From Clostridiales bacterium (lineage in GTDB: Bacteria > Bacillota > Clostridia > Oscillospirales > JAAYOS01): a stretch of DNA of 41,979 bases. The position numbers were made by a program, and so were the translations under genes. The notes under the pieces are model-generated. The model did no database searches. It was not told the origin of the DNA and saw only the letters and a program-made list of their open reading frames with translations. Shown piece after piece: positions 9,038 to 41,979 of this stretch. The stretch's first letter is position 1. Every line of letters begins with the position of its first letter. The DNA lies in assembly GCA_012520195.1 (NCBI GenBank), contig JAAYOS010000039.1, positions 1 to 41,979 on the forward strand, written 5' to 3'.

Positions 9038-10105
9038 TCAGCCACTGTCTCTCTCGACTATCTTCCACGAGATTTTTTCCGAGACAGCATCTTTTCCATC
9101 CATGAGATCCAAGATCTTCTTCGCCGCCACGTTTCCCACATTGTTATTTCCATGGGACAGGGTGGTGATAGAACTCATCTCACTCAGATAGCTATTATCG
9201 AAACTTACAAGGCTCATATCCTCCGGAACTGATATTCCACACTTGTCCAAGAGGGATAGGAGCGAACATGTCATTTCATCATTGTAACACACTATTGCAG
9301 TGCACCCTTCAGCTTTCCAACGCTTAATAACATGGGCTACCACAGGCTCCGAAAATACCAGAGGATACGAGGCTGTGCTGTACCATAACACTAAATCGTC
9401 ATCAGGAAGTAGTCCACAGCTATGGAGGCCTTGGGTATAGCCGGCGTACCGGCCATGACCTTGAATATCGTCGAACTTAAATATGCCTCCAATTCTTCGG
9501 TGCCCTTTGCTTACTAGATACTCAACCAACATCCTGCCTCCGCCCTCGTTATCGTCTAGAACGGATATGGCATCTTGAAGCTGAGGATAGATTCCGTTGA
9601 TGAAAACCATTGGTATTTCCTTATCCATCAGCTGTTGGAGAAGTTCCAGATTAGGATTGGGGAGTGCGGTCTTGGTGCCCTCAATAATGATGCCGTCAGG
9701 ATTGCACACAAGCAAGTTTTGCAAAATTGACCGTTCAACCGAGATGCGGTTATTTGTTGCGAAAAGCTGTGGTACACAGTCGCTCCGGGACAGAACGTCC
9801 TCTATCTCCCGTAGAATACTGGGAAAGATGTAATCACTGATGTAGGTAGTTACAACCGCTACTGAGCGTCGATGTGAGGTCGTCTTCGGCTCTACACTCT
9901 GCCTGATATAAGAACCGCTGCCCCTCCGTTTGTAAATGTATCCCTCTTCCACCAAAACCGTAAGGGCATTACGGATAGTCTGACGGCTGACTTGAAAGTC
10001 GTTCATCAAAGTATGCTCTGTAGGGAGCATATTGACATCCTTATACACTCCAGTTTGAATGCGAGCTCTCAGCTCAGATGCAATCATTTGATACTTCGGC
10101 TGCAC
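9038..10105 (-). CDS. GntR-LacI hybrid transcriptional regulator (AraR-like architecture)
   Basis: 355 aa. An N-terminal GntR-type winged helix (residues 1-68; LPTEHTLMNDFQVSRQTIRNAL and the wing GYIYKRRGSGSYI) is fused to a LacI/periplasmic-binding effector domain (about 78-355). This architecture is known from AraR, where a monosaccharide releases the repressor from DNA. The start is GTG 10105, with AGAGGTG 5 nt upstream and a promoter of its own. It lies at the distal end of the estB-ABC-estA arm, so it most likely controls this locus in response to the imported sugar or its product. The effector cannot be named from sequence. Confidence 0.88.
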   Translation of the reverse strand: MQPKYQMIASELRARIQTGVYKDVNMLPTEHTLMNDFQVSRQTIRNALTVLVEEGYIYKRRGSGSYIRQSVEPKTTSHRRSVAVVTTYISDYIFPSILREIEDVLSRSDCVPQLFATNNRISVERSILQNLLVCNPDGIIIEGTKTALPNPNLELLQQLMDKEIPMVFINGIYPQLQDAISVLDDNEGGGRMLVEYLVSKGHRRIGGIFKFDDIQGHGRYAGYTQGLHSCGLLPDDDLVLWYSTASYPLVFSEPVVAHVIKRWKAEGCTAIVCYNDEMTCSLLSLLDKCGISVPEDMSLVSFDNSYLSEMSSITTLSHGNNNVGNVAAKKILDLMDGKDAVSEKISWKIVERDSG

Positions 10106-10125
10106 AGAATCACCTCTGATGCTAA

Positions 10126-10154
10126 ATATTATCTTCTAATAGGGGGAAATGCAA
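10126..10154 (-). promoter_or_regulatory. Promoter of the GntR-LacI regulator
   Basis: On the minus strand TTGCAT (10154-10149), a 17-bp spacer and TAATAT (10131-10126). It lies downstream of the candidate estA terminator and gives a leader of about 15 nt before GTG 10105. Confidence 0.5.
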
Positions 10155-10164
10155 GTCTTTTCAC

Positions 10165-10189
10165 AAAAAAACCTTGCAGAACTATGCAA
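10165..10189 (-). terminator. Candidate terminator after estA
   Basis: On the minus strand TTGCA, a 6-nt loop and TGCAA are followed by GG and seven T. The stem is short (5 bp) but the T run is good. It separates estA from the regulator promoter. Confidence 0.45.
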
Positions 10190-10353
10190 ATCTCAATTTA
10201 TACAACAGTATCGGTTCCCCTACTAGTTTCCGAACACACCGTCAAACGACGCTTCACCAAGTCCAAGGTTATGCTCGCATTCCGTGAGGTTGATACCGCT
10301 CATTCTGCTAGTATTATCTTTGAGTAATCGTGTGCCCCCCTCCCTCAGGACAT

Positions 10354-11883
10354 TCAGGACTTAGACATTAGCTCTGCATAACGTCTTCTGTTTTCGTCCA
10401 GCATGAGCGCCATTCTTGGATCTACTTCTTTTTCCATTTGGACCGTGTCAAAGAACTGCATTGCTCTGCCGTTCTCTGCATCATATGGTAACCAGACTGG
10501 CATGTCACTACCGTCCTTGTCCTTTCCGTTCGGGTCACCAGTACGCGCGAAGTTTGCGAAGTAATTACACATCTTTCTTGCCAAATCAAAGTGGTGCCCG
10601 TCAAAGGGACGCCAGCAACGGATCAGTGTGTTGAACTGGAACCAAAGATCGCAGCTATGGAAGGCACCGGCATCATCTCCCGGTATGGTAGGTCCAAACT
10701 CCGAGAAGTAAACAGTACGCCCTACTTGGGCTAATACCTGTGCAGTTACCCTGTTTGCTATATTGAATGTAGAGTAGTCAGCGGCTTTCCTCAGAGATTC
10801 TTCATTATCAGAACCAGCGGCCTCTTTGACAAGTTCCCAGTATTCTTCTGCACGGTTCTCAAAGCTTGCTTCGACCCACTCTTTTGGTGCACCTGTCACT
10901 CCTGCCATGAACTCGTCTGAGGTAGCGGTTACCATCAAACTCACTTCGTGGAGTCGGTTAGCTGGAAACGCATCATTCGGTAGCTCAGTTATGAATTTCC
11001 CATCAATCACAGGAACCATCGGTCGCTTCATCTCGATATACTTCTCCAGCAGGATGGCTGGATCCAGTTTACGTGCTTCCGCCAGTGTCTTTACCCCGCA
11101 CATCTCAAAGAGCCGTGTACTTAGCTCATATGCCGTTTCCATGGAATCGCCTTTGGGTAGGAAAGTGGGCATAGGAGGATAGAGGAGCATGCGGGAACCC
11201 GCGGACTGTATGATTGCGCGCTGAAAATCCCCTTTTGTTTGCGGAGACACCAATTGGAACTGTACTGCGTCCCCACCGCCCGACTGTCCAAATATGGTGA
11301 TGTTCTCAGGATCACCACCGAAGTTTCTTATGTTCCGCTTTACCCACTTAATGGCAGCAGCCTGATCTAAGAGCGCAAAGTTTGACGGTGCCTCCGGACT
11401 CTCTGCAGTGATCTCCGGATGCGTAAGGAACCCGAAGAGGTTGAGCCGGTATCCCACAGATACGAGTATAACCCCACGGGAGGCAAACTCCTCACCGTCA
11501 AATTCCATCTCATGAGCGTAGCCCTCCTGCATACCGCCGCCGTGGATCCATACCATGACAGGCAGGTTCTCATCAATAGTTTTAGCGGGAGTCCATATGT
11601 TCAGGTACAGGCCGTCCTCAGAGTTAGGAATGTCCGGGTCGACATGCCATTCTTTACTGTAAAAAGCATTGGGATCCTTCCCCGGTGTTTTTTGATAGCA
11701 AATAGGCCCAAATTCATAACACTCCCTGACCCCTTCCCAGTTTGCCGAAGGTTGAGGGGCGCGCCAACGGTTTTCTCCTACAGGTGGTGCTGCGTAAGGG
11801 ATACCTTTGTAAACCGTTATTCTAGCGTTTGTACCTACGAGTCCCTTTACAAGACCATTTTCAGTTTTAGTGGCTCTAAGCAT
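10354..11883 (-). CDS. Type-B carboxylesterase, estA of this locus
   Basis: 509 aa alpha/beta hydrolase of the carboxylesterase type-B (para-nitrobenzyl esterase) family, without signal peptide and so cytoplasmic. Signature EDGLYLNIWTP at about 89-99, oxyanion region WIHGGG, nucleophile Ser201 in GQSGG (elsewhere in the locus GQSAG), acid Glu324, His409 in GAFHSCDLW. ATG 11883 was chosen because AGGAGGT lies just upstream and the N-terminus MLRATKTENGLVKG matches its paralogues; the frame extends to 12048 without similarity. It is closest to estD and estE: about three quarters of the first 100 residues are identical to estE by eye. It is the last gene of the left arm, separated from the ATPase by a hairpin, so its expression may be lower. 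The natural ester substrate is unknown. Confidence 0.9.
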   Translation of the reverse strand: MLRATKTENGLVKGLVGTNARITVYKGIPYAAPPVGENRWRAPQPSANWEGVRECYEFGPICYQKTPGKDPNAFYSKEWHVDPDIPNSEDGLYLNIWTPAKTIDENLPVMVWIHGGGMQEGYAHEMEFDGEEFASRGVILVSVGYRLNLFGFLTHPEITAESPEAPSNFALLDQAAAIKWVKRNIRNFGGDPENITIFGQSGGGDAVQFQLVSPQTKGDFQRAIIQSAGSRMLLYPPMPTFLPKGDSMETAYELSTRLFEMCGVKTLAEARKLDPAILLEKYIEMKRPMVPVIDGKFITELPNDAFPANRLHEVSLMVTATSDEFMAGVTGAPKEWVEASFENRAEEYWELVKEAAGSDNEESLRKAADYSTFNIANRVTAQVLAQVGRTVYFSEFGPTIPGDDAGAFHSCDLWFQFNTLIRCWRPFDGHHFDLARKMCNYFANFARTGDPNGKDKDGSDMPVWLPYDAENGRAMQFFDTVQMEKEVDPRMALMLDENRRRYAELMSKS

Positions 11884-34981: not shown

Positions 34982-36274
34982 CTAGGTGGCCTTGCGAATA
35001 ATCTCACAGCCGTTCATATACTTGCGAAGTACTTCAGGAATAACAACCGATCCGTCTTCGAGTTGATTCTGCTCGGCAATAGCCGGCAGCACACGGGATG
35101 TGGCTAGACCGGAAGCATTTAGTGTGTGAACAAACTCGATTTTTCCGTTATCCTGTCTTCTGTAACGCATCTGACCTCTGCGAGCCTGATAATCTCTAGC
35201 ATTTGAAGCTGACGAGACTTCCTTGAATCCACCCATGGAGGGAATATATATCTCAATATCATATGTTCTTGCCATCGATGCACTGCAGTCCTCCGCAGCG
35301 AGTTTTACCGTACGGAAATACAATCCCAGTCCCTCAACAAGCTTTTCAGCTTTTCTAACTAATTCTGCAAAGGCTTCATCCGAACCCTCGGGTGTTGTGT
35401 ACTGGACCATCTCGACCTTATTGAACTGGTGTCCGCGAATCATTCCGCGCTCATCTGCCCTATAGCTACCCGCTTCACGTCTATAACATGGTGTAAAAGC
35501 TATATATTTCTTTGGTAGATCCTTCTCGTCGAGAATTTCATCTCTATGCATGCTTACAAGAGCAGTCTCGGCTGTAGGAAGTAAGAAGCGTTTTCGACCT
35601 GGCTCATCCTCTTGGACCCAAAACACATCGTCCTCAAACTTCGGAAACTGACCAGCCGTGAGTCCCGAATCATAGTTAAGCATGTGAGGGACAAACAAAA
35701 GCTCATAACCGTCAGCGATGTGTGTATCGATAAAATAGTTAATAAGTGCCCATTCTAGTCTTGCACCCAGCCCGCGATAGACCCAGAATCCACTACCTGC
35801 GAGCTTTGCGCCCCTTGGGTAGTCAATAATTCCCAGGTCGGTACAGATGTCTACATGGTTTTTGGCCTCAAAATCAAATTCCGGTTTTGTGCCTGTAGCA
35901 CTTATCTGCTCATTGTTTTCTTTTCCACCAGGCCTCAAATCGGCATCGGGAAGGTTGGGCAGATCAAGCATCAAATCTCTAAGTTCAGACTCGACATCCC
36001 TTAAAAGTTGATCATTTTCCTTTATAGTATCCGAAATGCCCTTCATACGTACCAATAGATCGGATATGTCTTTCTTCTCTTTCTTAAGGATTGGAATCTG
36101 CTTACTGACGTTGTTTTGCTCAGCTTTTAGCGATTCTGTAGCCTGTATCATTGAACGCCTTTTTGCATCCAACTCAAGAATCCTGTTTATTTCGTTTTCT
36201 GCGTCTCTCCCCTTATATTTTAGGAGTCGGACTATCTCTTCAGGGTTGTCCTTTATTCTTTTTATATCAAGCAT
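34982..36274 (-). CDS. serS: Seryl-tRNA synthetase
   Basis: 430 aa class II synthetase. An N-terminal antiparallel coiled-coil arm (about 30-105) that holds the tRNA-Ser long arm is followed by the catalytic core with motif 2 PCYRREAGSYRADERGMIRGHQF and the motif-3 region ALATSRVLPAIAE-like (GLATSRVLPAIAEQNQ). AAAAAGGAG lies before ATG 36274. No T-box leader is visible in the 100 nt upstream. Confidence 0.96.
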   Translation of the reverse strand: MLDIKRIKDNPEEIVRLLKYKGRDAENEINRILELDAKRRSMIQATESLKAEQNNVSKQIPILKKEKKDISDLLVRMKGISDTIKENDQLLRDVESELRDLMLDLPNLPDADLRPGGKENNEQISATGTKPEFDFEAKNHVDICTDLGIIDYPRGAKLAGSGFWVYRGLGARLEWALINYFIDTHIADGYELLFVPHMLNYDSGLTAGQFPKFEDDVFWVQEDEPGRKRFLLPTAETALVSMHRDEILDEKDLPKKYIAFTPCYRREAGSYRADERGMIRGHQFNKVEMVQYTTPEGSDEAFAELVRKAEKLVEGLGLYFRTVKLAAEDCSASMARTYDIEIYIPSMGGFKEVSSASNARDYQARRGQMRYRRQDNGKIEFVHTLNASGLATSRVLPAIAEQNQLEDGSVVIPEVLRKYMNGCEIIRKAT

Positions 36275-36374
36275 TGTTTACAGCTCCTTTTTCGTGTGTA
36301 AATATTAATTAATGCTGTATCTATAATATAACTTGTAGATCACTAGATTCCAGATACATATGGCTTAAATCAAT

Positions 36375-37310
36375 CTAGGAATTTCCCAGAGAGGAAAGCA
36401 TTTCTACTAATTGATTTAAATCATCATTGCCGTAATATTCTATCTCTATGCGACCCTTCTTCTTACCATCAATTATTTTCACTTTTCTTCCAATATTATC
36501 TCCAAGCTCTTGCTGCAGGACTTTAATATAGTCAACAGTCACAGTGTTTGGAGCATCCTTTTCAACTTGAACGTCCTGTTCTTCTAGTTTCTGAATCTTT
36601 TTTACAAGCGCTTCAGTCTGCCTAACTGATAACTGTTGGGATATGATACGCTCGGCTAAGAGTTTCTGCATTTTCTCGGGCAGAGTTAACAGCGTTCGAG
36701 CATGTCCCCCCGACAGATCGCCATTTCGCAGCATCTCCAAAACCGATGACTCAAGGGATAGGAGGCGCACAGCATTTGCAACTGCAGAGCGTGACCTTCC
36801 AACCCTTTGCGCTACCTCCTCCTGCTTGAGACCGTAAGTTGACATAAGTACACGATATCCCTCTGCCTCTTCAACCGGATTGAGGTCCTCTCGTTGGAGA
36901 TTCTCCACCATGGCAAGCTCTGTGGCCTTAAGATCATCTGCCTCAATAATAATCGCTGGAATCTCTTTGAGTCCTGCTTTTCTCGCAGCTCTCCATCTCC
37001 GTTCTCCCGCAATTATCTGGTATGAACCACTGTCTATCCGGCGAACGGTTATCGGCTGTAGGACACCGTGTGTTTCAATGCTATCTGCTAGTTCATCTAT
37101 CTTTTCTTCAGTAAAGCTGCTCCGTGGTTGTGATGCATTAGGCTCCACATCTATGATCCTAAGGAGGTGTATATGCAGTTTATCTTCCGAATCGGCTTTA
37201 TCGGCTCCCAAGTCTTCTTGAACGACTGCTTCTAATGCCTCCTCGCCCAATAGACTACCAAGACCTTTACCAAGACCTCTTCCAAGACCTTTTGATGTCT
37301 TTTTACCCAT
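36375..37310 (-). CDS. parB: Chromosome partition protein ParB (Spo0J)
   Basis: 311 aa CTP-dependent DNA clamp that loads at parS. An N-terminal Lys/Gly-rich segment (GRGLGKGLGSLL) typical for ParA interaction is followed by the CTP/parS box GERRWRAAR (102-110) and ENLQREDLNPVEEA. The helix-turn-helix has Arg174 in GRSRSAVANAV, consistent with parS recognition. A C-terminal dimer domain ends the protein. It is 28 nt downstream of soj in the same transcript. Three parS-like sites lie to its right. Confidence 0.96.
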   Translation of the reverse strand: MGKKTSKGLGRGLGKGLGSLLGEEALEAVVQEDLGADKADSEDKLHIHLLRIIDVEPNASQPRSSFTEEKIDELADSIETHGVLQPITVRRIDSGSYQIIAGERRWRAARKAGLKEIPAIIIEADDLKATELAMVENLQREDLNPVEEAEGYRVLMSTYGLKQEEVAQRVGRSRSAVANAVRLLSLESSVLEMLRNGDLSGGHARTLLTLPEKMQKLLAERIISQQLSVRQTEALVKKIQKLEEQDVQVEKDAPNTVTVDYIKVLQQELGDNIGRKVKIIDGKKKGRIEIEYYGNDDLNQLVEMLSSLGNS

Positions 37311-37338
37311 GATATCCCTCCTGCATATGTTGAACTCC

Positions 37339-38088
37339 TTATTGCTCTATAAATTCCTCTGCTAGCCTCAAATAACCTTCAGCACCTCGAGATGCTCTGT
37401 CGTAAGCAAGTATAGGTAGACCATGACTGGGTGCTTCACTTAGGCGCACATTACGCGGTATTACAACCGAATATATCTTTCCAGGAAAGTGTCTCTTCAC
37501 TTCCTCGGCCACCTGGAGTGATAAGTTGGTACGTGAATCGTACATAGTGAGCAATATTCCGTCGATCTCCAGTGCTCTATTAAGGCCCTTTTTTACAACT
37601 CTTATTGTATATATGAGGTCACTAAGTCCCTCCAGTGCGTAGTATTCACACTGGACAGGGATAAGAACCGAATCTGCTGCACACAGTGCATTCAATGTTA
37701 GAAGCCCTAAAGAAGGAGGGCAATCAATAAATATATAGTCGAATTTATCGCGTAGGCCTTCAATAGCATTTTTTAACCTAAACTCGCGTTTTTCAATTCC
37801 TACTAGTTCAATTTCTGCCCCTGAAAGAACCTTATTTGCGGGGAGAACATCACCGTAATCTGTTCGCACTATAATTGATTCAGCATCCACTTCCCCCAAA
37901 ATAAGGTCATATGTAGTATTCTCTCTATTCTTATCCAATCCCATACCGGAAGTTGCATTGCCCTGCGGATCCATGTCGCAAAGAAGCACCTTTTTACCTT
38001 TATCATGGACAGATGCAGTGAGATTTACACATGTTGTGGTTTTGCCTACACCGCCCTTTTGATTGACAATTGCAATTATTCGACCCAT
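37339..38088 (-). CDS. soj: Chromosome partition ATPase ParA/Soj
   Basis: 249 aa deviant-Walker ATPase that binds DNA when ATP-bound and is stimulated by ParB. The Walker A motif KGGVGKTT is at 11-18, DMDPQGN follows, and the Walker B region is FIDCPPSLG. The length is normal. ATG 38088 has GAGGTG upstream. First gene of the soj-parB pair, with a clear promoter at 38118-38146. Confidence 0.97.
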   Translation of the reverse strand: MGRIIAIVNQKGGVGKTTTCVNLTASVHDKGKKVLLCDMDPQGNATSGMGLDKNRENTTYDLILGEVDAESIIVRTDYGDVLPANKVLSGAEIELVGIEKREFRLKNAIEGLRDKFDYIFIDCPPSLGLLTLNALCAADSVLIPVQCEYYALEGLSDLIYTIRVVKKGLNRALEIDGILLTMYDSRTNLSLQVAEEVKRHFPGKIYSVVIPRNVRLSEAPSHGLPILAYDRASRGAEGYLRLAEEFIEQ

Positions 38089-38117
38089 TCACTGCACCTC
38101 AATTTATCTTTTCTGTC

Positions 38118-38146
38118 ATTATACTTCAACCAATACAACTTTTCAA
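38118..38146 (-). promoter_or_regulatory. Promoter of soj-parB
   Basis: On the minus strand TTGAAA (38146-38141), 17 bp, perfect TATAAT (38123-38118), about 30 nt before ATG 38088. Confidence 0.7.
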
Positions 38147-38324
38147 CCTTGCAATTTCCTAGACTTCTTCATACTTGTACAAAAACCTGTCACGAGTTTA
38201 CTTCTTACATGTATTCGGCTCTTTTCAAGCACTTATTCTTAATATTCTATTTGTTTATTCTATTGTTAAAATCCTACACCAGATCTTTCTTAGAATTTTA
38301 TTAACTTAAATCAAAGGCGTTAAC

Positions 38325-38358
38325 CGCTAAAGATGTTTCACGTGAAACATCTTTAGCG
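38325..38358. other. parS site 1 within a 34-bp perfect palindrome
   Basis: The core TGTTTCACGTGAAACA (38334-38349) matches the Bacillota parS consensus. The dyad continues 9 bp on each side (CGCTAAAGA / TCTTTAGCG), giving 34 bp of perfect symmetry. Confidence 0.93.
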
Positions 38359-38926
38359 AATACTATTATTAGATCGAGTCAAGCCCTAGTATATGATTGC
38401 TTTATTTCTCTCTTCCTGACTTCACTTCTATCATTCTACCTGGAATACCCTGAAATTTCAAATGCACTGAGATTGAACGTGTAAGAAGTGGTGTAATGTG
38501 TAAGTTTTGCATAGTAATTTATGACCTACTAAAAAAGACCGCAATAATACGGCCGCAAATTACCTGTGTACCCTTCTAGGATAAATATCAAATAGCAGAG
38601 CTGTTTTTTCAATATTGGAACTAGCATAATTGGCATTACATTGAGATTATCACAAACTGTTTCACAAAACTCCTTAATGATCGTCTGCAACAACTCTCAG
38701 TAACGCTCCCTACTATTAGATTGTAGTATTTATATCCATTAAGTCAAGCAAATCGAGTTAAGATTATTTAACTTATTTCTTATTATGAGAGGGAGTTTTT
38801 GAAAAGATAATCAAGAACTTCGATAATTTAGCCTTTACAGCAATATGCAATGTTAGCACTAGCATCAATCTTATAGCTGATTTGTAATTAATACTCTATG
38901 TACCTTAACATACACACTGGCCATAA

Positions 38927-38962
38927 AATAGAGTAATGTTTCACGTGAAACATTACTCTATT
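38927..38962. other. parS site 2 within a 36-bp perfect palindrome
   Basis: The core TGTTTCACGTGAAACA (38937-38952) is identical to site 1. The dyad continues 10 bp on each side (AATAGAGTAA / TTACTCTATT), a sequence unrelated to the flanks of site 1. Confidence 0.93.
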
Positions 38963-38994
38963 AGTACAAACTTGTGGTGAAGAACAAAAAGAGC

Positions 38995-39020
38995 CCGCCA
39001 TCTGCTCTCGCAAGTGGCGG
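38995..39020 (-). terminator. Terminator of the noc-type gene
   Basis: CCGCCA / TGGCGG stem; on the minus strand it is followed by GGGCTCTTTTTGTTC. It lies 45 nt after the stop at 39065. Confidence 0.65.
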
Positions 39021-39064
39021 ACAAATTGCACAGGCCATACTCCCCGTAAATAGCAAATGAAATG

Positions 39065-39886
39065 TTAGCTCGCCTTTTTAGGAATTCTTATCGTAAGTGT
39101 GATGCTACGCTCATCCTCTTCCTTCCCGTAGTTTGCATCGAGCCCGGATTCTCGCATCACATTGATTGCATGCTTGATCGTGTTTTCAAATATTCTAAAA
39201 TCCTTGATTATAAAAGAGAAGGAACGATTTAACTTCTTTGCTGCCTTTGAACCGGAACTATTCAACATTCGTTCGATAAGTTCTTCTGTATCAGCAACAT
39301 TTAGATCATTCTCAACTATTTGCTCAATAGTATCTAACCTATCCTGTTCATTATCAAGCCTAAGCAGTGCCCGTGCGTGTCTTTCAGTAAGGCCATGTTT
39401 TCTCAGTTTGTCGAGCACCTCTCGAGGATGTTTTAGTATCCTCAGCTTATTAGCAACCGCGGACTGCGATTTTCCTATCTTTTTGGCTGCTTCTTCCTGC
39501 GATAGTCCATACGCTAATATTAGCCGAGCAATACCTTCCGCTTCCTCGATAAAGTCTAGATCCTTTCGCTGTAGATTCTCAATAAGTGATAGTATAGAAG
39601 ACTCCTCATTATTCACTCCAAGAATTACACATGGAACTGTCTTTAGACCTATCATCTTTGCTGCACGCAATCTACGTTCACCGCTGATTAACTCATAATA
39701 CTCGTTTTTCTTTCTTACGCTTAATGGTTGGAGGATTCCATACATAGATATGCTGTCGGCAAGCTCACTAAGGCTGTCCCTGTCAAAGAGCTTTCGCGGT
39801 TGGCTGGGATTTGGGCGCAGTTTGTCTATCGATATGTACTGGATCCTGTTGCTTTCATATAGATTATGTTCATTAACAATCTGCAT
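39065..39886 (-). CDS. noc: Noc-type ParB paralogue (nucleoid occlusion protein)
   Basis: 273 aa ParB/Noc-family CTPase. The parB-box reads GERRLRAAK (69-77), ENLQRKDLDFIEEAEG follows, and the helix-turn-helix GKSQSAVANKLRIL has Gln141 and Lys147. ParB proteins usually have Arg, and Thr or Ala, at these two positions; Gln and Lys are typical of Noc, which binds a different site. The N-terminus (MQIVNEHNLYESNRIQYISI) lacks an obvious amphipathic membrane-targeting helix of the kind known at the start of Bacillus Noc. It sits between rsmG and parS/soj, as noc does elsewhere. It could instead be a second ParB. Confidence 0.85.
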   Translation of the reverse strand: MQIVNEHNLYESNRIQYISIDKLRPNPSQPRKLFDRDSLSELADSISMYGILQPLSVRKKNEYYELISGERRLRAAKMIGLKTVPCVILGVNNEESSILSLIENLQRKDLDFIEEAEGIARLILAYGLSQEEAAKKIGKSQSAVANKLRILKHPREVLDKLRKHGLTERHARALLRLDNEQDRLDTIEQIVENDLNVADTEELIERMLNSSGSKAAKKLNRSFSFIIKDFRIFENTIKHAINVMRESGLDANYGKEEDERSITLTIRIPKKAS

Positions 39887-39919
39887 GAAACCCTCCCCCG
39901 TACCAACTTGCCTAAATAC

Positions 39920-39947
39920 ATTATATCTGAATTATTTATCGTGTAAA
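39920..39947 (-). promoter_or_regulatory. Promoter of the noc-type gene
   Basis: On the minus strand TTTACA (39947-39942), 16 bp, perfect TATAAT (39925-39920), about 34 nt before ATG 39886. GGGGGAGGG precedes the ATG. Confidence 0.65.
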
Positions 39948-40098
39948 GTTAAACTTATCGCAATTTTCGATAGGTTTTTACAACATATTTGGTGTTTTAG
40001 GTGCTACTGTAGTGATTTTATATCGAAAATCGGAGGGAAATGCCGAAAACTGTAGAGAGAATCTATCTAGCTACGCGCAATGTGTGGCGCACATAAAT

Positions 40099-40130
40099 AC
40101 TCCAATCTCAATCGGAAATGAGATTGGAGT
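40099..40130 (-). terminator. Terminator hairpin of rsmG
   Basis: A 12-bp perfect stem (ACTCCAATCTCA / TGAGATTGGAGT) with an 8-nt loop, followed on the minus strand by ATTTATG, a weak T tract. It lies 25 nt after the rsmG stop. Confidence 0.6.
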
Positions 40131-40155
40131 TGACTCAACTTATGTCATTATTTGG

Positions 40156-40863
40156 TTATAGTGGGTTTTGCTTTATCTTTGCGAAGCGGCGGGGATATCC
40201 TTTGGGCGTCTGTTTCACCTTTTCAGCTCTGACTATCTGTAGTTGAATATCGCGTTGGGGCAAGGTGTATTTATACGACTCGATGTTCCTCCCCCCCATT
40301 ATTTTTATGGCTCTCTTCGCCGCCTGGATTTCTTCGTCGATATCCATCGATTTCATTGCACAGAACAGGCCGCCCACCTTTATAAACGGTAAACATAGCT
40401 CAGATAACATATTTAACCCGGCCACAGCCCGGCTAGTTGCGTAATCATACTGCTCTCTGTATTCTTCTGTCAACGACAATTCCTCGGCACGTGCCTTAAT
40501 AACAGTTACTTCTTTTAATCCCAGTGCATCCTTGACTTGTCTCAAGAAGTCCATCCTCTTGCCATTTGAGTCGATAAGAGTCAGTATTATATCCGGTCTC
40601 ATTATTTTAATGGGGATACCTGGAAATCCAGCTCCTGTTCCAATGTCAATTAAAGAAGAATCCTCTTTTAGGCCCATTCGAACAAGTGACAGGGAGTCCA
40701 TAAAGTGGCGCACTGTGATCTCCTCAGGCTCGGCATTACCAACAAGATTCATTCTACGGTTATACTCTGCAAGGAGACGTCCATATTCTTCGAATTGACA
40801 GAGTTCAACATCTGACGGTGTCATATCCCATTCCTGCATTAGTTCTAAGAGCAAACTCTTCAA
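40156..40863 (-). CDS. rsmG: 16S rRNA (guanine527-N7)-methyltransferase RsmG (GidB)
   Basis: 235 aa SAM-dependent methyltransferase. Motif I is LIDIGTGAGFPGIPIKI, and NLVGNAEPEEITVRHFMDSL upstream and TSRAVAGLNML later are family hallmarks. The start is TTG 40863, with AAGGGGA 9 nt upstream; it gives an N-terminus of normal length, while an ATG eight codons later would be slightly short. It lies 18 nt after mnmG, as in most Bacillota, and is very likely cotranscribed. Confidence 0.95.
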   Translation of the reverse strand: MKSLLLELMQEWDMTPSDVELCQFEEYGRLLAEYNRRMNLVGNAEPEEITVRHFMDSLSLVRMGLKEDSSLIDIGTGAGFPGIPIKIMRPDIILTLIDSNGKRMDFLRQVKDALGLKEVTVIKARAEELSLTEEYREQYDYATSRAVAGLNMLSELCLPFIKVGGLFCAMKSMDIDEEIQAAKRAIKIMGGRNIESYKYTLPQRDIQLQIVRAEKVKQTPKGYPRRFAKIKQNPL

Positions 40864-40881
40864 ATTATACAGTCCCCTTCC

Positions 40882-41979
40882 CTACCTGTTCCTATCTAGC
40901 CAAATAATCAGGGCCACCATGTCGGCTGGAGATACACCCGGGATTCTAGAAGCCTGTCCTATAGACCTGGGTTTCACATCATTTAGCTTCTGCCGTGCCT
41001 GAAAGCTGATTCCCGTAATATCGTTATAATCAATATCACTTGGTAGTTTTCTGTTTTCCTGTCGACGATACTCATTTGCTTGAGCCTGCTGCCGCTTTAT
41101 ATATCCCTCATATTTAGTCGCTATATCAATCTGCTCAATTATCACACGGCTCAGATCTGGTCTTGACTCGTCAAAGTCAGCCAACATCTCATAAGTTAAC
41201 TGGGGTCTCTTTATGAGCTCGTAAAGTCTAACACCATTTTCTATGGGAGAGGTGCCGGCTCGGATAAGCATATCATTTAGTTCTTCCGTAGGTTTAATTG
41301 TAACTCTCTTGATCCTCTCAATTTCATTATGAACCAGTTCATATTTTTGTTGGACCTCTTCGTATCTTTCACGTGAAACAAGGCCTATCTCGTACCCTAA
41401 CTCTGTAAGTCTCAAATCAGCATTGTCCTGTCTGAGCAAAAGGCGGTATTCAGATCTTGATGTCATTATTCGATAAGGTTCAGTCGTTCCCTTCGTTACA
41501 AGGTCATCGATCAATGTACCAATATATGAGTTAGATCTGTCTAATACTATCTGTTGTTTTCCTTTAATTTTCAACGCTGCGTTTATTCCTGCAACGATTC
41601 CTAGCGCAGCAGCTTCTTCGTATCCAGAGGTTCCAATAAATTGGCCTGCGCCATATAGGCCTGATACCTTCTTTAATTCTAGAGTGGGCTCAACCTCGAG
41701 TGGATCAACGCAGTCATATTCTATTGCGTAGGCTGGTCGCATTATCTCTGCACGCTCAAGACCCTTGACCGAACGCACAACTTCGATTTGTACATCCTCA
41801 GGTAGAGAGGTTGAGATACCCTGTAGATACATCTCTTCAGTGTTGAGTCCCATAGGTTCAACAAAAACAGGGTGCCTGTCCTTATTTGCAAATTTAACTA
41901 TCTTGTCCTCAATAGAGGGGCAGTATCTCGGTCCAACACCCTTAATTTCGCCTGAATACATTGGCGCTCTGTATAAATT
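40882..41979 (-). CDS. mnmG: tRNA uridine-5-carboxymethylaminomethyl modification enzyme MnmG (GidA), C-terminal part
   Basis: FAD protein that works with MnmE on wobble uridine 34. The reading frame is open to the window edge (NLYRAPMYSGEI), so the start and the FAD-binding N-terminus lie outside; about 365 of the usual ~620 residues are seen. The family signature GPRYCPSIEDKIVKF is followed by GLNTEEMYLQGISTSLP, GLYGAGQFIGTSGYEEAAALGIVAGINAA and the MnmE-binding helical C-terminus. It contains a near-perfect parS site. Confidence 0.97.
   Translation of the reverse strand, partial: NLYRAPMYSGEIKGVGPRYCPSIEDKIVKFANKDRHPVFVEPMGLNTEEMYLQGISTSLPEDVQIEVVRSVKGLERAEIMRPAYAIEYDCVDPLEVEPTLELKKVSGLYGAGQFIGTSGYEEAAALGIVAGINAALKIKGKQQIVLDRSNSYIGTLIDDLVTKGTTEPYRIMTSRSEYRLLLRQDNADLRLTELGYEIGLVSRERYEEVQQKYELVHNEIERIKRVTIKPTEELNDMLIRAGTSPIENGVRLYELIKRPQLTYEMLADFDESRPDLSRVIIEQIDIATKYEGYIKRQQAQANEYRRQENRKLPSDIDYNDITGISFQARQKLNDVKPRSIGQASRIPGVSPADMVALIIWLDRNR
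41365..41380. other. parS-like site inside mnmG
   Basis: TCTTTCACGTGAAACA matches the parS core at 15 of 16 positions (C for G at position 2). The extended palindromic flanks of the two intergenic sites are absent here. Confidence 0.75.

Follow-up and report, generated by a model that had tools for sequence, protein, structure and literature searches.

The chromosomal parS site of ParABS systems has the consensus TGTTNCACGTGAAACA, a 16-bp palindrome (available parts of PMC7022226). The site is regarded as purely a DNA element. In Pseudomonas aeruginosa, ParB represses the promoters adjoining the intergenic sites parS3 and parS4, according to the available parts of PMC7022226 and PMC5521831. 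There, too, a parS site matters for nearby transcription, but it is the ParB protein that acts, and at initiation; at our locus the role would fall to the sequence of parS, in the RNA and at termination. Unlike the two sites of our locus, parS as presented in the available parts of PMC7022226 comes with no mention of arms extending it into an RNA hairpin, and the available parts of PMC5521831 mention no hairpin either. The second class to which our sites bear a likeness is the intrinsic (Rho-independent) terminator. The stems seen in relatives lie some tens of bases past the noc stop codon and have a U-tract behind them, and between apparently convergent genes in two genomes (G020 and G008) they take the form of bidirectional terminators. 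They differ from ordinary terminators in that the loop and upper stem are fixed by parS, in the relatives and in our locus. Of our own two sites, site 2 combines an outer stem rich in A/U with a U-tract that is no more than modest, and site 1 has no U-tract.

We found no description of a parS inside a terminator in searches of an open-access full-text library, which included the available parts of PMC4368675, PMC7022226, PMC7383237, PMC12779278 and PMC5521831; most subscription papers, the original parS survey included, lie outside that scope. Within it, the proposed fusion of parS with a terminator is new.

Read as RNA, the 16-bp palindrome of parS encodes a 6-bp stem with an ACGU loop. We propose that parS sites in the spacer between noc and parA have repeatedly gained complementary arms, in Oscillospirales and in some other Bacillota, and so would form the top of an RNA hairpin. 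Together with a U-tract on the noc strand, the arm-extended hairpin would be the intrinsic terminator of noc. One element would then hold two jobs, loading ParB as DNA and ending the noc transcript as RNA, and its arms would be lineage-specific because only their pairing is kept. On balance we think this repeated fusion of parS with the noc terminator probable; it is clear in relatives, plausible for site 2 and unproven for site 1. Should parS be the regular end point of noc transcription, whether on the site or at it, a single element would serve as centromere and terminator and be under selection for both. Were this true, the unrelated palindromic arms would be explained, the nucleoid-occlusion and partition operons would be linked, and the coexistence of transcription and ParB clamps at parS could be tested with point mutations that disrupt the RNA hairpin and nothing else. 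A more tentative thought, which we would not lean on, is that a need to halt transcription exactly at parS lies behind a repeated evolution of parS-terminators in Bacillota, a stop that would spare ParB clamps from RNA polymerase or let bound ParB tune noc readthrough into parA-parB.

Two palindromes between noc and parA

The window, by which we mean the whole stretch of 41,979 nucleotides that was analysed, is contig 122 of an assembly of 2.45 Mb in 209 contigs from a gut-type bacterium. Its right end reads, in minus-strand order, mnmG-rsmG-noc-parS-parS-parA-parB-serS-mnmE, with mnmG cut by the contig end at the window's right edge. The features that matter here are as follows.

36375-37310, minus strand: parB (spo0J), with ParB_N, HTH_ParB and ParB_C domains
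37339-38088, minus strand: parA (soj)
38089-39064: noc-parA spacer, 976 bp, holding both parS sites
38118-38146, minus strand: promoter-like site before parA, TTGAAA-17-TATAAT, 11/12 by consensus match only, downstream of both parS sites
38325-38358, unstranded: site 1, a perfect 34-bp palindrome with 17-nt arms and 0 spacer; parS core 38334-38349
38927-38962, unstranded: site 2, a perfect 36-bp palindrome with 18-nt arms and 0 spacer; parS core 38937-38952
39065-39886, minus strand: noc-like ParB paralogue, TIGR04285 299.3 bits, below the curated cut-off of 315
41365-41380, unstranded: parS-like sequence inside mnmG, one mismatch, perfect arm of only 6

Both sites adjoin parA and parB in a gene cluster of the origin-side type, and the locus has what a ParABS locus should have: the exact core, the parA and parB neighbours, and a ParB with the usual domain make-up. 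The cores are identical 16-bp copies of TGTTTCACGTGAAACA, the sole exact copies in the whole 2.45-Mb assembly. Site 1 lies 253 bp upstream of the parA start codon, and the centre of site 2 lies 121 bp downstream of the noc stop codon. An earlier note on this DNA had reported perfect palindromes of 34 and 36 bp around identical cores and a copy in mnmG that lacks the extension, and on each of these points it was exact.

The composition of the spacer (38089-39064) gives a match chance of 0.274 for each flank pair. Beyond the core, site 1 carries 9 extra pairs (chance ~9e-6) and site 2 carries 10 (~2e-6), which puts the joint chance of both extensions at ~2e-11 from base composition and bears out the earlier note's view that chance is a very unlikely author of them. 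Among the matches listed for the 42-kb window, no other inverted repeat with arms of at least 14 is 100% complementary. The palindromes are real and beyond chance.

ParB would bind both sites. By alignment by eye to residues given in the available parts of PMC7383237, the ParB of the window (P0002) carries the parS-type recognition residues R and G, at 173 and 201, and the Noc paralogue (P0001) has Q, K, K and R at the specificity positions, which is the NBS type. Despite these residues, the assembly holds no NBS 14-mer at up to one mismatch. We therefore dropped Noc binding at the palindromes as a candidate, as nothing ties Noc to them. The spacer has no DnaA box at up to one mismatch.

Extended sites among relatives

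The Noc protein of the window has its nearest named relatives in genera such as Avoscillospira, Evtepia, Intestinimonas, Agathobaculum and Anaerotruncus, all members of Oscillospirales. Our sample consisted of up to 20 kb around parB from genomes of the same order, 94 loci in addition to the window; a match was found in 189 of 197 genomes, 80 of the places so listed were taken, and most of the loci came from that list. Our ORF calls (at least 90 aa) put some sites wrongly inside genes, and the table of gene contexts is thus kept out of the conclusions. At up to two mismatches, the 94 loci and the window contain 201 parS-like sites, 116 of them with a self-complementary core. The distribution of extra pairs is split, with long extensions or none: half of these cores (58/116) have no extra pair, the maximum is 14, and 11/116, the window's two included, have at least seven, against 0.01 expected at p=0.27. 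A larger set of 221 distinct parS-like sites from the relatives and the window has at least five extra pairs in 21. Many sites were scanned, and one to three extra pairs are expected by chance, but the excess of long extensions and the joint figure for the window refute chance as their source, and we give it practically no weight.

Across the Oscillospirales relatives the arms are everywhere unlike each other. A longer recognition site for ParB or Noc is rejected on this count, the arms sharing no sequence; the earlier note, which had seen flanks that are self-complementary and not conserved in sequence, and had thus thought a longer ParB recognition sequence unlikely, was right. Nor is symmetry needed for parS, because in G001, a genome of the window's own genus, the two cores carry 0 and 1 extra pairs. 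Where noc-parA sites have 0 or 1 extra pair, pairing further out is at chance level. The extension is therefore a state acquired by some sites, a minority, and not a property of parS. Per-position covariation over 94 noc-parA sites is modest because most of the sites have no extension, and yet at least six of eight pairs form in 13 sites, against 1.2 expected and a maximum of 6 in 2000 permutations. Extended sites also occur beyond Oscillospirales: a phylum-wide sample of 27 loci and 40 sites has at least five extra pairs in 5 of 31 self-complementary cores, and T-runs follow several of its extended sites (L317, L323, L330, L332). Long zero-spacer palindromes that do not contain parS are scarce (1.63 Mb has 9 whose arms reach at least 12) and, judged by eye, mostly T-tailed too.

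Two rivals to a terminator have to be weighed against this picture. The first asks for no selection at all. A nascent strand ending in parS might fold back and copy its own flank by template switching, so that the palindrome lengthens by mutation. Arms that are perfect and unrelated between lineages are what such a process would leave, as are the split distribution and the extensions that lack terminator features (window site 1, L067 and a site in rsmG of G008). No sister pair turned up that shows an ancestral flank on one side and its copy on the other; the window's own spacer has no match in 12 relatives, G001 included. Template switching also gives no reason to expect strand bias, G-U bias or the exclusion of other noc terminators, and all three are seen, as set out below. 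We judge it unlikely; such a process might also have produced hairpins that were afterwards retained as terminators.

The second rival places the symmetry in DNA, with a cruciform or a symmetric flank that helps ParB loading or marks the site. Perfect arms at both window sites, the want of an RNA terminator at site 1 and a covarying site that sits between divergent genes in genus g5 speak in its favour, but the G001 cores and the 58 unextended cores of the relatives do not. The earlier note had set related genomes with the same cores and no flank symmetry against its own reading, and in these two observations that case is partly found.

Hairpins downstream of noc

The gene order noc-parS-parA is common in Oscillospirales, and a site can therefore be read on the noc strand. 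In many cases the extended site lies 30-120 bp past the noc stop, with T-runs behind it on that strand. We scored hairpins with a function of the d'Aubenton-Carafa type and folded them with ViennaRNA.

Three lines of computation carry the argument for a terminator. The first is strand bias. Of 75 noc regions, 59 distinct ones have parS no more than 230 nt from the stop codon. Among these, a parS-containing hairpin exceeds a score of 10 in 32 on the sense strand and in 6 on the antisense strand, against an average of 1.1 with shuffled flanks. With genus g46 set aside and a single g16 genome kept (n=35), the figures are 13, 4 and 0.5. An independent set of named organisms (80 loci from a contig scan, 74 of them usable and new, 27 with parS) has parS hairpins scoring above 0 in 6 sense and 0 antisense cases, against 0.9 shuffled, a lower frequency than in the main set. 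This set includes Butyricicoccus faecihominis (L260) and Evtepia gabavorous KLE1738 (L228), in which GATGGATG...CATCCATC is followed by CTTTTTT; both are cultured relatives whose noc region has a parS-terminator and no separate one.

The second line is mutual exclusion. The 86 regions of both sets divide into 37 with a parS-terminator alone, 36 with a separate terminator alone, 5 with both and 8 with neither (Fisher p 3e-11); with g46 set aside and a single g16 genome kept (n=62) the counts are 19, 35, 2 and 6 (p 6e-9), and both p-values are optimistic because the regions are related by descent. Such a pattern is to be expected if one terminator is what noc requires and the job has passed to parS in about half of the sampled regions. 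Placement agrees. The best terminator after noc contains the whole of parS in 34 of 54 regions, against 9.4 expected from random placing. A further count bears on the more tentative thought of a stop exactly at parS. Where a noc region has both parS and a predicted terminator (79 regions), the latter contains parS in 40 (11.9 expected from random placing) and its U-tract abuts parS in another 16 (4.8 expected), two counts to which parS itself supplies stem and T bases. In this second arrangement, found for example in L128, L133, L140 and L176, the noc terminator lies immediately ahead of parS, into which its U-tract extends. Elsewhere (L120, L154, L172, L260, L293), neighbouring parS sites are able to pair with each other into one large terminator-like hairpin.

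The third line is the nature of the mispairs. Near-complete stems, judged on the first eight flank pairs, occur at 27 of 119 noc-downstream sites, and on the noc strand their departures are 18 G-T against 3 A-C; four g16 genomes account for ten of the 18, and the independent G-T events are therefore fewer than 18. The orthologous g16 hairpins (L177, L178, L180, L181, L182) have flanks whose only differences leave standard or G-U pairing intact in the noc-strand RNA. Genus g46 has 18 species with parS after noc and differing arms, L195 against L189 showing a C-G for G-C exchange on both sides. Some of its species (L188, L190, L191, L197) build the noc terminator from half of parS and a duplicated half site, with a stem that uses GTGTTTCAC, so that the RNA hairpin is present though the DNA palindrome around parS is unextended. 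A cruciform would not give the pairing patterns of g16 and g46, and strand-specific departures are not expected of one; symmetry at the level of DNA is, in our estimate, very unlikely to be the explanation. The covarying self-complementary flanks that the earlier note had suggested seeking in related genomes exist at orthologous sites of g5, g16 and g46. Its wider claim, selection for symmetry or for a cruciform or hairpin, survives in its hairpin part, where strand bias and G-U changes point to RNA and mostly to a noc terminator; symmetry of parS DNA is not general.

Scores by themselves say less. When the stems of 21 extended sites were kept and everything outside them was shuffled, 14.4 scored above 0 (18 observed) and 8.2 above 10 (14 observed). 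An argument from score only is weak in this control, and the weight therefore falls on strand bias, G-U bias and mutual exclusion.

Coming back to the window, the noc strand of its spacer has three predicted terminators and the opposite strand has none.

38537-38554, minus strand: third predicted terminator, between the two parS sites, score +24.2
38929-38960, minus strand (noc/parA sense): site-2 RNA hairpin, then UUUUAUGG, score +14.9, opposite strand -7.3
38993-39022, minus strand: separate predicted noc terminator, GTCCGCCA...TGGCGGGC then TCTTTTTG, score +23.2

The site-2 hairpin folds at -17.3 kcal/mol on its own and at -19.9 kcal/mol within 38920-38970 (minus strand). Its stem is followed by UUUUAUGG and its score is positive, but with shuffled surroundings and the stem kept a positive score still has a chance of 0.60, and a stricter pattern scan of the spacer, which finds only 38537-38554, misses both site 2 and the terminator at 38993-39022. 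Most relatives with a parS-terminator have no other terminator for noc; site 2 would not be alone, the predicted one at 38993-39022 being separate from it, and noc does not need site 2, because the window belongs to the five regions in which both kinds occur. A parS-terminator of the kind proposed is the most likely identity of site 2, plausibly a redundant and A/U-rich one on these predictions, with noc's own terminator lying ~30 bp earlier.

The noc-terminator reading, then, fits site 2 and does not fit site 1, where no terminator score rises above 0 on either strand (-13 on minus, -14 on plus) and a stem followed by a U-tract is not seen. The RNA of site 1 is nonetheless predicted to fold strongly, at -22.9 kcal/mol. 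Most likely it would be a hairpin of the same origin whose U-tract is absent or lost; it may also be a factor-dependent terminator, a leader hairpin or a product of template switching. A hairpin in the leader of parA, or in a small spacer RNA, is a further rival for site 1 and for the g5 site. A promoter-like site at 38461-38433, if used, would transcribe site 1 toward parA, but the best parA promoter match (38146-38118) lies downstream of site 1 and Rfam has no match in 36000-41979 up to E=1. The same search gives no known RNA in the spacer. We judge a non-terminator hairpin of this sort unlikely.

Between the two parS sites, at 38537-38747 on the minus strand, a promoter-like sequence (38747-38720) is followed by the good terminator at 38554-38537, which suggests a predicted transcript of roughly 170 nt that is without an Rfam match.

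Extensions outside the terminator reading

Some extensions fall outside the terminator pattern. Genus g5 has an orthologous parA-noc site in four species (L058:15190, L059:14450, L060:12724, L061:17395) whose arms change together, as GGTGAT/ATCACC, GGCGAC/GTCGCC and CGTCGAT/ATCGACG. This hairpin cannot be a noc terminator, because noc and parA diverge there. Two inner departures in the g5 genome G007 read C-A toward noc and G-U toward parA, and a parA-strand RNA is therefore possible, which favours a leader hairpin at this site. The parS core of G007 has decayed by two bases; the near-pairing remains.

L067 has 7 extra pairs and no positive terminator score. G008, of the same family, has a 34-bp parS palindrome with 9 extra pairs (L056:10255) inside rsmG (ORF 10042-10809), apparently an in-frame insert of ~20 residues before the methyltransferase motif. 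With the g5 site, these two cases mean that some extensions are left over when sites are read as terminators. The flanks of 16 G008 sites were compared, and no 12-mer is common to three or more of them. Across its loci (L056, L057, L298-L311), G008 carries at least 28 exact TGTTCCACGTGGAACA cores, several in coding sequence; most relatives have few.
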